Below, one piece after another: positions 45,827-52,016 of a DNA stretch of 64,000 nt. The notes under the pieces were generated by a model. That model was not told the origin of the DNA, did not search any database, and worked only from the letters and a program-made list of their open reading frames with translations. The stretch spans positions 1 through 64,000 of the forward strand of contig JAKAVQ010000009.1 in assembly GCA_021817245.1 (NCBI GenBank), read 5' to 3'. A program made the position numbers and the translations under genes. The DNA comes from Thermoplasmata archaeon (GTDB lineage Archaea; Thermoplasmatota; Thermoplasmata; Lutacidiplasmatales; UBA184). Position 1 is the first letter of the stretch. Each line of letters starts with the position of its first letter.

Positions 45827-46984
45827 ATGACCGGATTCTTCACCACCCCGCGCATCGCCTGGGGGGTCGGAGCGATCCAGCAGCTGAGCGGCCTCTCCGC
45901 GCATTCGGCGCTCGTCGTGGTCGATCCCGCGGTCGCCGAACTCGGCCCGACGCGTCGGGCGAGCGAAGAGCTCGCGAAGTCGGAAACCACAGTCGAGGTC
46001 GTGGTCGCCCCCGAGAACCCGGAGCGCGTCGACCGCGTCGAAGAGCTGGCGGACCGCCTCCGCCGGACATCGCCCGACTGGGTCGTCGTGATCGGCGGCG
46101 GCCGGACGATCGACGGGGTGAAGGCGGCCCGATCCCGCGCCGAGCGGCCGGACCTTCGGTTGGAACCCTCGGCCGCACCGCCGCTCGACCTCGACAGCCC
46201 GCCCCGTTCCCGGCTCGTGGCGGTCCCGACCACCGCCGGCAGCGGCAGCGAAGCAAGCTCGACCGTCGACCTGCTCTCGGTCGACGGTCGTCCGTTCGAA
46301 CTCGCGCACCGCGCCTTCGCACCGGAATGGACGCTCCTCGACCCCACGTTCGTGACCGGGCTCCCGCGCGACCTCCTGCTCGACGGCGCGCTGGAGACGG
46401 CGGCCCAAGCGATCGAGGCGTACCTCTCCGCGTGGGCGAACCCGTTCTCCGACGCGCTCGCGATCGATGCCCTGGCGACCGTGCTCGATCGACTGCCGCA
46501 CGCGCTCCGCTGGAGCGACGACCCGGAGGCCCGTTCCGCCCTCTTCTACGCGTCGACCGCCGCGGGGTTGGCGACCTCGAACGCGCAGCGGGGCGTGGCG
46601 CACGCGCTCGCCCGCGCCCTCGGCCCCCCCACCGGGCTCTCCTACGGGCGCCTTCTTACCGTCATCCTGCCCTCCGTCCTCGAGTTCGACCGGCCCTCGG
46701 CCCGTGATCGCTGGGAGCTGCTCTCCGTAGCGGCCGTCCGGACCGAGAACGCGCCGCGGCTGCCGCTCCCGACCCGGCTCGAACGGCTTTACGAGACGTT
46801 CCGGCTGCCCTCGTCGCTCGCGACCGCGGGGATCGACGCGGCCCTTCTCGCCCCGCACCGGGCGACGATCGTCGGTGACGCCCTCCGTTCCCCCACGACG
46901 CTCGCCAACCCGCGCGTCCCGTCGGAGGAGGAGCTGAGCCGCCTCCTCGAACGCCTGACCGGCGGTGGACCGGCCGCCCGGTAA
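45827..46984 (+). CDS. Iron-containing alcohol dehydrogenase-fold protein with altered metal ligands
   Basis: 385 residues, ATG start. The Fe-ADH fold is clear: TTPRIAWGVGAIQQL, VVVIGGGRTIDGVKAA (NAD-binding loop), VAVPTTAGSGSEASSTV. The metal site is not normal. Where relatives such as FucO have Asp, His, His and His, this protein has Glu (LETAAQAIE), Gln in the same motif, His in GVAHALARALG, and Tyr in GLSYGRLL in place of PHG. Three of four ligands are changed, so iron-dependent catalysis is doubtful. It may use another metal, bind without catalysis, or have a new role. It follows the truncated Fur gene by 21 bases. Confidence 0.85.
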   Translation: MTGFFTTPRIAWGVGAIQQLSGLSAHSALVVVDPAVAELGPTRRASEELAKSETTVEVVVAPENPERVDRVEELADRLRRTSPDWVVVIGGGRTIDGVKAARSRAERPDLRLEPSAAPPLDLDSPPRSRLVAVPTTAGSGSEASSTVDLLSVDGRPFELAHRAFAPEWTLLDPTFVTGLPRDLLLDGALETAAQAIEAYLSAWANPFSDALAIDALATVLDRLPHALRWSDDPEARSALFYASTAAGLATSNAQRGVAHALARALGPPTGLSYGRLLTVILPSVLEFDRPSARDRWELLSVAAVRTENAPRLPLPTRLERLYETFRLPSSLATAGIDAALLAPHRATIVGDALRSPTTLANPRVPSEEELSRLLERLTGGGPAAR

Positions 46985-47033: not shown

Positions 47034-49136
47034 ATGGATGGCCCGGTCCGCGCCCACGTGGCGCCGGCCCCTCCTGCCCGTGCCGAGGACCGGCCGGGGC
47101 TGCCGTCGGAGAGCCGACGGATCCTGGCTGCCCTCGATACCGCCCGGGTCCAGCGATTCCACCTCCGCACGATCGTGGTCGCGGGGATGGGGTTCTTCAC
47201 GGACGCCTACGACCTCTTCGTGATCTCGCTCGTCATTCCGATCCTCGTTGCGCTCGCCCCCGGAGGCGCGGTCGGGAAGCTCGAGATCGGCCTCCTCGGA
47301 TCGACCGCGCTCATGGGTGCGGCGGTCGGGCAGGTCTTCTTCGGCTGGCTCGGCGACCGGCTCGGACGGCGGAAGGTCTACGGCGTGACGCTCGGCCTGA
47401 TGGCGGTCGGGGCGGTAGGCAGTGCCCTCAGCGGCCCGTTCGCAGGCCTCTCGACGATCTCGGTCCTGATCCTCTGGCGCTTCCTCCTCGGGATCGGCGT
47501 CGGCGGGGACTACCCGCTCAGCGCGACCATCATGAGCGAGTACTCGAACGTCCAGAGCCGGGGTCGCCTGGTCGCGACCGTCTTCGCGATGCAGGGGTTT
47601 GGCCTCCTCGCCGGAGCCGGTGCCAGCCTCGCGGTCGTCTACACGATCCCGAACCTCGACATCGCCTGGCGCCTCATCCTCGGTCTCGGCGCGCTGCCGG
47701 CGCTCGTGACCGTCTACTTCCGGATCCGCATGCCCGAGACGCCCCGGTTCGACCTCGCCCGGGGACGCGTCGGCGACGCGGCACGGACCGTCGGTTCGAT
47801 CACGGGCACCTCGGTGGCGGCGGCGGGGGGTTCGCGGGGTCTCGGCGTCCCGATGCGCCAACTGTTCCGGTCCTACGGTCTCCTCGTGTTCGGGACGGCG
47901 GCGACGTGGTTCCTGCTCGACATCGCGTTCTACTCCACCAGCATCTTCAACCCGCTGATCCTGAAGCAGATCGGGTTCGCGAGCGCGACGTCGTACCCGG
48001 CGCTCCAACAGGTCCGGCTCCTGGCCGCGGGCAACGTCCTCATCGCGCTCCTCGCGAGCGTCCCCGGCTACTGGGCGGCGGTGGCGCTGATCGACCGGGT
48101 CGGCCGTCGACCGCTCCAGTACATCGGCTTCGGGGTCATGGCCGCGGCGTTCCTCTTCCTCTCGCTCGGCTGGAACGAGCTCACCGGTGTCCTCCCGGCG
48201 TTCCTCGCGGTCTACGGTCTCACGTTCTTCTTTGCGAACTTCGGACCGAACACGACGACGTTCGTCTACCCCAGCGAGGTCTTTCCCACGTCGTTCCGCA
48301 CGACCGGCCACGGGATCGCCGCCGCTTCGGGAAAGATCGGGGCCGTGATCGCGGTCTTCGTCTTCGCCGGTCTCACTGCGACGTACGGTCTCCCCTGGTT
48401 CTTCGGACTGCTCGCCGCGGTGTCGCTGGTCGGATGCCTCCTCACGCTCGCGCTCCTTCCCGAGACGAGCCAGCGCTCGCTCGAGGACGTCTCGGGTGAG
48501 GACGAGCTTGCGGTCCTCGTCCGTCGGTTCTCCACGTACCTTCGCTCGCTCTCGCTCACGGCCCAGCGGGCCGCGCTGGCCCTGAAGGAGCTCCTCGCCG
48601 ACCCCTCCGTGGACCGGGAGGGCAAGGTCAACCGGATCCGCGCGATCGAGCACGAGGCCGACGAGGAAGTGCACCGGGTCTTCGTCGAGCTCAACAACCG
48701 GCGCCTCGCTCCCGAGGTGCGGGCGGAGGTCGGCCGTCTCGCCAGCGCGCTCGACGACATCATCGACGGGATCGAATCCGTCGCGGCGAGAGTGCGGACC
48801 TATCGCCTCGAGCACACCCGTCCCGAGGTCGTGCGCTTTGCCGAGATCGTCGTCGAGTCGGTCGACCGGGTCAGCGACGGGATCCTCGGCCTCGACGAGC
48901 TCTACCGCGGCGCCCCGGCGAACCTGCAGCGCGCGATCGTGGAGGTGAACCGTCTCGAGAACGAGGCGGACGACCTCCTGAGGGACCTCCTCGAGAAGCT
49001 GTTCAGCGAGAAGGACCCGATCGAGATCCTGAAGTGGAAGGACTTCTACGAGCGGCTCGAGCTCATCACCGACCGGTGCGAGGACGTGACCGACGTCTTC
49101 CAGGACCTCGAGGTCCGTTACGCGCCGGGCGCCTGA
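47034..49136 (+). CDS. Phosphate-type MFS permease fused to a DUF47/PhoU-like domain
   Basis: 700 residues, ATG start. Residues ~40-480 are a PHS/PHO84-like MFS permease: RTIVVAGMGFFTDAYDLFVI, GWLGDRLGRRKVYG, GIGVGGDYPLSATIMSEYS, SEVFPTSFRTTGHGIAAASG. After LPETSQRSLEDV comes a helical DUF47 domain (~490-700) with IRAIEHEADEEVHRVF and VNRLENEADDLLRDL (E-x3-D metal motifs) and DPIEILKWKDFYERLELITD. DUF47 proteins are normally separate partners of Pit-type phosphate transporters. Here a permease and a PhoU-like regulator are one chain. The neighbour, an AbrB-PhoU protein, is convergent with a 19-base overlap. Confidence 0.92.
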   Translation: MDGPVRAHVAPAPPARAEDRPGLPSESRRILAALDTARVQRFHLRTIVVAGMGFFTDAYDLFVISLVIPILVALAPGGAVGKLEIGLLGSTALMGAAVGQVFFGWLGDRLGRRKVYGVTLGLMAVGAVGSALSGPFAGLSTISVLILWRFLLGIGVGGDYPLSATIMSEYSNVQSRGRLVATVFAMQGFGLLAGAGASLAVVYTIPNLDIAWRLILGLGALPALVTVYFRIRMPETPRFDLARGRVGDAARTVGSITGTSVAAAGGSRGLGVPMRQLFRSYGLLVFGTAATWFLLDIAFYSTSIFNPLILKQIGFASATSYPALQQVRLLAAGNVLIALLASVPGYWAAVALIDRVGRRPLQYIGFGVMAAAFLFLSLGWNELTGVLPAFLAVYGLTFFFANFGPNTTTFVYPSEVFPTSFRTTGHGIAAASGKIGAVIAVFVFAGLTATYGLPWFFGLLAAVSLVGCLLTLALLPETSQRSLEDVSGEDELAVLVRRFSTYLRSLSLTAQRAALALKELLADPSVDREGKVNRIRAIEHEADEEVHRVFVELNNRRLAPEVRAEVGRLASALDDIIDGIESVAARVRTYRLEHTRPEVVRFAEIVVESVDRVSDGILGLDELYRGAPANLQRAIVEVNRLENEADDLLRDLLEKLFSEKDPIEILKWKDFYERLELITDRCEDVTDVFQDLEVRYAPGA

Positions 49137-50197
49137 GCGAGGGGCCGCTCGCCCCCCTCCGCCTCGGTCCTGCCCACGGGCGACTCGACGGCGCGGTTGA
49201 TCGCGATCTCGGCGAGGTCGCTCGCGTAGAACGCGCTCCGCTCGAGGCTCTCGAGCACGTAGGCGAGGCAGATCGCGAGCCGACCGCGCTTCGACGCGAT
49301 CTCCCGCAGCACGTGGTCGCGCTCGCGGGCGAGCCGGTGGGCGGCATCGATGACGGCGTTCGCCTTGTCGATGTCCCGGTGGTCGAGGCTGTCGAGCGCG
49401 TCGGCGAGCGCCGCAGCGGCCGCGTCCGCCATCCGCTCGAGCTCTGCGACGACCCGCTCGGGGGTCCGCTCCCGGTCGAGCAGGGCCACCGACTCCGCGA
49501 TCCGGACGGCGTGGTCGGCGATCCGCTCGAGCACCCGCGACGCGAGCAGGTAGGTGGAGCATTCCGGGAGCGTGAGGTCGAGCGTCGCGAGGATGCGCGC
49601 GTCGCGCAGCGCGCTCGTCACCTGCTTTTCGAGGAACCAGTGGAGCCGGTCGACCTCCCAGTCGCGTTCGACCACGTCCTTCGCGATCGACTCGTCCCGG
49701 GAGCGGAACGCCGCCATCGCGTCCGCCTGCATCGAGCGGACCATCTGGTGCTCCCGGCGGATGATCGACGGGATCGGCAGCGGGTTCGCCCCGACGACGT
49801 CCTGGAGGACGACCGACTCCGCCGTCTCCTCGAGGATCTCGGGCCCGATCATCCGCTGGGCGAAATTCCGGATCACCTCGCGCGTGCGCGCGCTCATCCG
49901 CCCCGAGGTCCGAATCTCGAGGAGGGGATAGCCCGCGATGTACTCGGCGATCAACCGACGGAAGAGGTGCTCCTCGTCATCGGTATTGCCGACGACGACC
50001 ACGCGCCGCTCGGCGACCGGGGGCCCCTTCGACTCCGCAAAGACCGTGAGGGACCCGTCGGCCCGAGGGGTGAACAGGAGCGTGTCGCCCGGCCGGAGGC
50101 CCCGCGCCGTCACCCAGTTCTTCGGCAGCGAGATGATGTAGGTGGACCCGCCGGTCTTCTGGATCCGGCGACCGTGGAACCCGCCACTGCTACGCAT
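49118..50197 (-). CDS. Archaeal PhoU-family regulator with N-terminal AbrB domain
   Basis: 359 residues from ATG 50197 (frame opens at 50275, but the TATA box lies in between). N-terminal SpoVT/AbrB swapped-hairpin domain: RRIQKTGGSTYIISLPKNWV, GDTLLFTPRADGSLTV. The rest is PhoU-like: repeated helical segments with RDWEVDRLHWFLEKQV, CSTYLLASRVLERIADHAVRIAE, YVLESLERSAFYASDLAEIA. Proteins of this architecture are archaeal phosphate-responsive regulators, combining DNA binding and metal-coordinating PhoU helices. Convergent with the permease-DUF47 fusion, suggesting a phosphate-homeostasis pair. Confidence 0.9.
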   Translation of the reverse strand: MRSSGGFHGRRIQKTGGSTYIISLPKNWVTARGLRPGDTLLFTPRADGSLTVFAESKGPPVAERRVVVVGNTDDEEHLFRRLIAEYIAGYPLLEIRTSGRMSARTREVIRNFAQRMIGPEILEETAESVVLQDVVGANPLPIPSIIRREHQMVRSMQADAMAAFRSRDESIAKDVVERDWEVDRLHWFLEKQVTSALRDARILATLDLTLPECSTYLLASRVLERIADHAVRIAESVALLDRERTPERVVAELERMADAAAAALADALDSLDHRDIDKANAVIDAAHRLARERDHVLREIASKRGRLAICLAYVLESLERSAFYASDLAEIAINRAVESPVGRTEAEGGERPLAQAPGA

Positions 50198-50329: not shown

Positions 50330-50354
50330 CGGCGCCCGGGTGAGGACGGTCGCC

Positions 50355-52016
50355 ATGGGGGAGGAGCCGGCCCGCCGCGTACGCTACCGCGGACGCGTCT
50401 ATGCGGCGCGGCCCTCGGAGCCGCTCCTCGCCGCGATCTCCGCCCGCGGGATCCCGACCCTCGAGCGGTCCGTACGGTATCACCGGCCCCGGGCCCCGTT
50501 CTGCGGGACCGGACAGTGCACCGGCTGCCTTGTCCGCGTGAACGGCCGTCCCCTCGTCCGCTCGTGCCGGTACCGGCCGCACGACGGAGACGTGGTCGTC
50601 AGCGACGGCGGCTGGCCCTCGGCCCGTCTCGACCTGCTCGGGCTGCTCGACGTCCTCTTTCCCGGAGGACTCGACCCGTTCCGCGGGTTCCGGCGCCCCG
50701 CGTTCGCGGCGCCGGTCTATCAGTGGTTCGTGCGCCGGCTGGCCGGCTACGGCACCCTCCCGCCACCGGGCTCTCCCGCGCCTCCCGCGCCGGCGGTGGC
50801 TCGGCGGGCCGACGTCGTCGTGGTCGGCGGCGGTGCGAGCGGGCGTGCGGTCCTGGACCGGCTCGCGACCCTCGGACATCGGTCCCTCCTTATCGACCGG
50901 GACCCGCTCGCAAGCGCGCCCGCCGGGACCGATCTCCTTCCCGGCGTCTCGGTGACCCTTCTCACCCCGCCCGACCCGTCGCGCGAACGCCCGTTCACCC
51001 TCGTGGGGTTCATGGACGACGGTCCCGGGGTCGCGGTCGAGGCGAGGACGGTCGTCGTCGCGACCGGGGGGTACGACGCTTCGCTATCGTTCCCCGGGAA
51101 CGACCGACCCGGCGTGCTCACGGCGGACGCCGCGCTCGGCCTCGCGCCTTCCCAGGAACGGACGTGGTTCCGCCATGCCGCGCTCATCGGAGGGGACCGG
51201 CGCGCGGTCGAGGTCCTCGCCGCTCACGGAGCACGGATCGGCTCCGTGGTCGCGACCGGCGAGGTCCGGCCCGACGTCGTCCGCGCCGCCTCCGATCTCG
51301 GGATCCCGATCTACCCGCGCTCCCTCATCGTCGGCGTGCGGGGCTGCCGCCGCGTACGGGCGCTTCGGCTGCAGGGCCGGGGCCGCGGCCCCCCCTTCTC
51401 GCTGCGGTGCGACGCGGTCCTCCTCGCCCACCGGCGTCTTCCGAACGTCCAGCTGGCCTACCTTGCGGGGGCTCGGATGCGCTGGTGCGCCGGGCCCGGC
51501 GCGTATCTTCCCGAGGTCGACGAGCGCGGACGCACGAGCGTTCCCGGCCTCTTCGCCGTCGGGGAGGCGGCGGGCGTCCTCCCGGTCGACGCGGCCGCGA
51601 GCGGAGAGCGCGTCGCGGAGGCGATCGCGGGCGGAGGGTGGGAGGGCGCTCCCGCGCTGGCGGGGGTCCGAGAGGACGGGGCCGGCGATCTCGAAGGGTA
51701 CTATCGGGAGCTCCTCGCCGTTCCGCGGCGCGGGCGGTGGGTCGCCTGCCGCTGTGAGGACGTACTGCTCGAAGACCTCGCGCGGGCCCACGCGGCCGGC
51801 TACCGAGGGATCGAGGTCATCAAGCGGTACACGAGCCTCGGGACCGGTCTCTGCCAGGGCCGGTACTGCGTGCCGGACGCCCTCCTCCTCCTCGCCGTCC
51901 TCGAGAACCGACCCCCCCACGAGGTCGGCTTCGTACGGAGCCGTCCACCGGTTTTCCCGACCCCGCTCGGCGCCCTTGCGTCGCTCGACGGCCCCGCTCG
52001 GACGGAGGTGCCATGA
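50355..52016 (+). CDS. FAD oxidoreductase fused to two [2Fe-2S] domains (sarcosine-oxidase-alpha/opine-DH-like)
   Basis: About 553 residues from ATG 50355 (GTG 50340 would add five). N-terminal Fer2_4 domain with PFCGTGQCTGCLVRVNG and a fourth Cys in RSCRY; central FAD/NAD Rossmann region (ADVVVVGGGASGRAVLDRLA, VVVATGGYD, GLFAVGEAAGVLPVD); C-terminal BFD-like cluster with CRCEDV and GTGLCQGRYC. The set is found in subunits of heteromeric sarcosine oxidases, hydrogen-cyanide synthase and dye-linked L-proline/opine dehydrogenases, where it carries electrons from the DAO-type partner. That partner is the next gene, overlapping by four bases. Confidence 0.88.
   Translation: MGEEPARRVRYRGRVYAARPSEPLLAAISARGIPTLERSVRYHRPRAPFCGTGQCTGCLVRVNGRPLVRSCRYRPHDGDVVVSDGGWPSARLDLLGLLDVLFPGGLDPFRGFRRPAFAAPVYQWFVRRLAGYGTLPPPGSPAPPAPAVARRADVVVVGGGASGRAVLDRLATLGHRSLLIDRDPLASAPAGTDLLPGVSVTLLTPPDPSRERPFTLVGFMDDGPGVAVEARTVVVATGGYDASLSFPGNDRPGVLTADAALGLAPSQERTWFRHAALIGGDRRAVEVLAAHGARIGSVVATGEVRPDVVRAASDLGIPIYPRSLIVGVRGCRRVRALRLQGRGRGPPFSLRCDAVLLAHRRLPNVQLAYLAGARMRWCAGPGAYLPEVDERGRTSVPGLFAVGEAAGVLPVDAAASGERVAEAIAGGGWEGAPALAGVREDGAGDLEGYYRELLAVPRRGRWVACRCEDVLLEDLARAHAAGYRGIEVIKRYTSLGTGLCQGRYCVPDALLLLAVLENRPPHEVGFVRSRPPVFPTPLGALASLDGPARTEVP

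Follow-up and report, generated by a model that had tools for sequence, protein, structure and literature searches.

The window analysed here is a 64,000-nucleotide stretch of a Thermoplasmata archaeon contig (JAKAVQ010000009.1). It carries a gene that joins a PHS-type MFS carrier to a C-terminal DUF47 domain, and an AbrB-PhoU gene lies tail-to-tail with it. The features of the locus are as follows.

47034..49136, + strand: fusion gene encoding a 700-aa protein, PHS-type MFS carrier followed by DUF47 (stop codon included; 40 distinct two-domain homologues)
47121..48503, + strand: MFS/PHS carrier domain, residues 30-490 (Pfam, TIGR00887, PDB 9kmq, Foldseek, PiPT residues)
48456..48500, + strand: junction/linker, residues 475-489 (helix boundaries in the model, 40-protein junction alignment)
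48525..49103, + strand: DUF47 / PhoU_div / PitR-like domain, residues 498-690 (PF01865, AlphaFold model, Foldseek)
48648..48662, + strand: metal-type motif 1, E539xxxD543 (invariant in 40 fused proteins; 98-100% in 49 standalone DUF47 proteins)
48753..48767, + strand: metal-type motif 2, D574xxxD578 (no exceptions among 40 fused proteins; kept in 98% of standalone DUF47 proteins)
48957..48971, + strand: metal-type motif 3, E642xxxD646 (no exceptions among 40 fused proteins or 49 standalone DUF47 proteins)
49059..49073, + strand: metal-type motif 4, E676xxxD680 (no exceptions among 40 fused proteins; kept in 51% and 76% of standalone DUF47 proteins)
49118..50197, - strand: AbrB/MazE-PhoU protein, putative DNA-binding phosphate regulator (Pfam; adjoins the fusion at 20/40 distinct loci)

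The 700-codon frame at 47034-49136 (+) runs from an ATG at 47034 through a stop ending at 49136 with no internal stop. The ATG at 47034 was chosen as the start, although the open frame extends upstream as far as a GTG at 46965; the full-length AlphaFold model shows disorder across residues 1-24. The open frame and the Pfam matches to both domains within the same protein confirmed the original prediction of a single unbroken frame, and Pfam and NCBIfam together bore out its description of a PHS/PHO84-like carrier covalently linked to DUF47. The DPIEILKWKDFYERLE segment to which it had drawn attention was also found in the protein. The other immediate neighbors of the fusion, an Fe-ADH gene (45827-46984) and a 2Fe-2S/FAD oxidoreductase gene (50340-52016), suggest no link to phosphate.

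In the carrier half, Pfam identified Sugar_tr at residues 49-486 (5e-50) and MFS_1 (3e-34), and the best of 23 NCBIfam matches was the phosphate:H+ symporter family TIGR00887 (residues 33-489, 8e-127, 424 bits). Because this score lies below the equivalog cut-off of 610.3 that defines curated membership, the family rule by itself would leave the substrate unsettled. The closest solved structures by sequence were OsPHT1-11 (PDB 9kmq, 1e-104) and PiPT, and a Foldseek search with the carrier returned only PHT1-11 and PiPT structures at ranks 1-12 (TMt 0.84-0.87). The PiPT phosphate pocket comprises Y150, F174, Q177, W320, D324, Y328, N431, and K459, and its proton residues include D45, D48, R139, and D149 (PMC6761603). 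These 12 positions of the published list were compared, E108 being left out, and all 12 were identical in the window protein, with D57, D60, R149, and D159 matching the proton residues and Y160, F184, Q187, W292, D296, Y300, N406, and K434 matching the phosphate residues. Nearly all 12 were also conserved in the alignment of the 40 fused proteins. On the basis of these similarities, the carrier is very probably a Pi:H+ symporter. Some variation was seen within the fused set: the position of PiPT D149 is a glutamate in seven proteins from families other than f27 and f31, and all seven proteins of f27 and f31 (L172-L178) have a shorter junction and show Q177 to W and K459 to R replacements in the phosphate pocket, which possibly indicate a different substrate or affinity.

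The C-terminal tail matched PF01865 (PhoU_div/DUF47) at residues 498-690 with 6.5e-24 and 84.9 bits, against a gathering cut-off of 24.4. Structure modeling, which the original prediction had proposed as a check, gave a PiPT/PHT1 fold followed by a PhoU-like bundle. The DUF47 domain was modeled with a pLDDT of 93, and its best Foldseek match was BT4638 (3l39, TM 0.89), followed by Shewanella PhoU-like proteins and classical PhoU structures. The predicted E-x3-D motifs of DUF47 are present, but they number four (E/D)xxxD motifs rather than two, and the tail is likely to bind metal. DUF47 comes directly after the PHS C-terminus. In the full-length model (mean pLDDT 88), a stretch of approximately 15 residues, partly unstructured, separates the last TM helix (residues 453-474) from the long helix that opens the tail (residues 489-522). 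In the canonical MFS topology the N- and C-termini are both inside, and the DUF47 tail is therefore expected on the cytosolic face.

In order to determine how common this domain order is, archaeal genomes were searched as the original prediction had suggested, and the arrangement proved recurrent. Scans that covered bacterial and archaeal genomes as well as relatives recovered the same protein from independent assemblies at approximately 40-85% identity. After loci of other families were added, a PHS and a DUF47 profile each matched in 48 frames, of which 40 are distinct, and several Thermoplasmata families contain two-domain homologs. A frame was counted as a fusion only when both profiles matched, because frame length alone misled once: a 683-aa frame (L170) was rejected because it contains a standalone DUF47 gene whose apparent upstream extension is a spurious reading of GC-rich sequence. 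A survey of 300 genomes in the class yielded DUF47 frames of two sizes, approximately 210-300 and 650-870 codons, and every length listed for the window's own family (f1), a list that leaves aside two weaker matches, belongs to the long class. Outside the class, near-full-length matches in one frame were found in 16 of 245 genomes of the phylum Micrarchaeota and in one of 300 genomes of the phylum of a MAG labeled TACK. This MAG is small (0.6 Mb) and its TACK label may be wrong. Two close sister carriers, L048 (KMA_Bin27) and L073 (UBA168), come from genomes below 1 Mb, one of them a MAG labeled TACK. No full fusion was present in 201 genomes of Chloroflexota, the phylum of Dictyobacter, where matches stop near residue 490-515, and the best matches of a plasmid search with the tail as query were standalone bacterial DUF47 proteins only, at approximately 30% identity.

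The junction shared by many independent assemblies rules out an assembly chimera, the case that the original prediction had named as capable of overturning it. Both halves showed similar dN/dS values (0.15-0.34 for the MFS half and 0.19-0.41 for the DUF47 half); the tail is therefore maintained under purifying selection like the carrier. The fusion is a widespread family and not a singularity. No clear case of a split ancestor was found among these loci; the apparent two-gene split at L073 was discarded, an NN assembly gap sitting at the break. A further locus examined for a decayed tail (L058) has no DUF47-like sequence past its stop.

Phylogenetic trees gave different pictures for the two halves. 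The fused tails group together on one side of a branch in the DUF47 tree (support 89/75; 90% of bootstrap trees) and join mostly Pit-adjacent DUF47 proteins at a support of 97/97. The fused carriers do not form a single clade in the MFS tree: unfused carriers, some from the same genomes (G013, G026), lie between them, and a forced single clade was rejected (AU p 1.6e-30). Trees built from fused proteins only recovered the same major groups for both domains with the deep order unresolved. Taken together, the two trees make it probable that the tail was acquired once from a Pit-associated DUF47, followed by tail loss or carrier exchange; several fusions with related tails are the less probable course. 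The two members of a tandem DUF47 gene pair (L206:6016-7306, - strand) fell at separate places in the DUF47 tree.

The convergent neighbor that had been noted at 49118-50197 (-) was verified as an AbrB-PhoU gene (PhoU 2.4e-25, MazE/AbrB 1e-7, Pfam), and its tail overlaps that of the fusion gene by 19 nt (49118-49136). Of the 40 distinct fused loci, 20 have AbrB-PhoU within 3 kb of the fusion, some of the others being cut by contig ends, compared with three of 62 loci of unfused PHS genes, two of these three from Nitrososphaeria (Fisher p 1e-7, with kinship ignored). In the window's genus the two genes converge, often with overlapping tails; in f11 and some members of f1, AbrB-PhoU is located upstream and points away from the fusion. 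The suggestion of a new phosphate-control pair held only in part: the neighborhood is recurrent, but AbrB-PhoU seems to accompany archaeal phosphate-transport loci in general and not to be a partner specific to the fusion, because it also adjoins Pit-DUF47 operons and fusion-less PHS genes. In family f9, it is located downstream of Pit-DUF47, and the clustering of Pit, DUF47, and AbrB-PhoU in the same direction (L124, L128-L133) suggests a conserved archaeal phosphate module.

That DUF47 is normally a separate accessory of Pit, as originally stated, and encoded beside it was seen in Thermoplasmata loci and is described for bacteria (PMC13170248). Further DUF47 loci lack Pit (L191-L194, L199-L201, L203-L206), and at L190:6067-11227 (-) of genome G040 (f16) a standalone DUF47 is arranged head-to-tail with two TOBE-type ABC ATPases and a BPD_transp_1 permease, again without Pit; this is a further DUF47-transporter pairing. 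Within 3 kb of the fused genes, Pit was absent at every fused locus. The window's genome encodes a Pst ABC system and PhoU elsewhere. This assembly is 93% complete and gene absences are provisional; in it we detected no Pit (PHO4, PF01384), no second DUF47 besides the fused copy, and no PhoB-type winged-helix regulator (Trans_reg_C), and only one response-regulator domain scored over the cut-off. The idea that the fusion substitutes for Pit was unsupported, PHO4 being present in 2/6 fused versus 11/19 other genomes of the genus (p 0.38).

We propose, with a probability of roughly 0.6, that the protein is a Pi:H+ importer with its own PitR-type regulator, whose action would include gating, and that AbrB-PhoU is the transcriptional arm. 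A 12-TM carrier of the PHS (PHO84/PHT1) branch of the MFS would bring in Pi with protons, and the helical DUF47 bundle, suspended from the last TM helix by the linker of approximately 15 residues, would probably hold divalent metals on the cytosolic face via its four acidic motifs. The tail may sense cytosolic Pi, metal-phosphate, or the transport state and dampen import when Pi is sufficient, and AbrB-PhoU would probably act on transcription in a genome with no detected PhoB-type regulator. We infer both this gating and sensing by the tail and the functional link to AbrB-PhoU; counting against this reading, unfused PHS carriers without a tail occur in the same genomes (G013, G026). In S. aureus, NptA without its PhoU domain still imports, and growth of the strain worsens with rising Pi (PMC13170248). 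Gating is not the sole option, because this deletion altered signaling as well as growth (PMC13170248), and gating and signaling are indistinguishable from sequence.

The tail might instead make the protein a transceptor, reporting transport or phosphate status to AbrB-PhoU or another regulator with no gating, which we consider unlikely. E. coli PhoU reports for Pst-PhoR in this manner. Likewise, the NptA PhoU domain reports to PhoPR in S. aureus, where PitR and PhoU-domain mutants chiefly alter PhoPR output (PMC13170248), and the PHS relative Pho84 of yeast acts as a transceptor (PMC5159500). The placement of AbrB-PhoU beside the fusion in two orientations is consistent with such signaling, but half of the fused loci lack it within 3 kb, and the genome offers no detected PhoB-type partner and a single response-regulator domain over the cut-off.

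Far less probable is a tail that binds the metal accompanying imported phosphate and, instead of regulating, chaperones or buffers it. Pit carries neutral metal-phosphate, and a Pit-associated kind of tail with four invariant acidic motifs would suit such a role. However, the carrier retains the residues of proton-coupled Pi transport, and the PitR phenotype is regulatory (PMC13170248). Transport of a different oxyanion or organophosphate under control of the tail would accommodate the TIGR00887 score below the equivalog cut-off and the altered pockets of f27 and f31, but the identity of the window protein at all tested PiPT positions and its nearest structures, which are phosphate transporters, leave this as the least probable reading.

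The MFS-DUF47 fusion is real, and the mode of regulating phosphate uptake that it would provide is apparently undescribed. Searches of an open-access library turned up no account of a PHS/MFS-DUF47 protein; the architecture is probably already recorded in automated domain databases. Extending the regulated-importer reading, we tentatively suggest, at somewhat less than even likelihood, a fourth prokaryotic class of phosphate import with a dedicated accessory regulator. Here, a PitR-clade domain would have left Pit for an MFS symporter and become covalently attached to it. The joined form would have persisted while it diversified and moved between Thermoplasmata and Micrarchaeota, possibly through more than one fusion event or repeated swaps of the carrier, and the domain would form a phosphate circuit with AbrB-PhoU that stands in for PhoR-PhoB.

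Compared with known systems, the carrier half resembles PHS symporters (TC 2.A.1.9; PiPT, Pho84, PHT1) in fold and in every Pi/H+ residue tested, with 39% identity to OsPHT1-11 and approximately 31% to PiPT by structural alignment, and differs in its 200-residue C-terminal DUF47, which is absent from the matched solved PHS chains. The tail shares domain family, fold, and acidic motifs with PitR/Pap (DUF47, PF01865), which works with Pit; in the fusion, however, it is covalent and placed on an MFS carrier, whereas S. aureus PitR is a single-domain protein. Each accessory clade has been tied to one importer family, PhoU to Pst, PitR to Pit, and the PhoU domain to NptA, in a survey that sampled only single-domain PF01865 proteins for PitR (PMC13170248), and the fusion joins the PitR clade, within a single chain, to a fourth importer that is unrelated to these three. 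The layout has precedents. NptA (PF02690 with PF01895) likewise combines an importer and a C-terminal PhoU-superfamily regulator in one chain, but with an unrelated carrier fold and ion and another PhoU clade, and neither Pfam family matched the fusion protein. The neighboring gene is of the same kind as other archaeal AbrB-PhoU proteins and remains separate from the fusion. For the question of how PhoU and PitR act on their transporters, a natural 1:1 fusion with a confident model permits a direct test of gating versus signaling. Finally, plant SPX-MFS proteins (PHT5/VPT) also join an MFS phosphate carrier to a helical phosphate-status domain, but SPX, for which Pfam gave no match in the fusion protein, is N-terminal, unrelated to PhoU, and senses inositol (pyro)phosphates on a vacuolar carrier (PMC13153306). 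The layout of the fusion thus represents an archaeal counterpart of plant SPX-MFS, assembled from unrelated parts.
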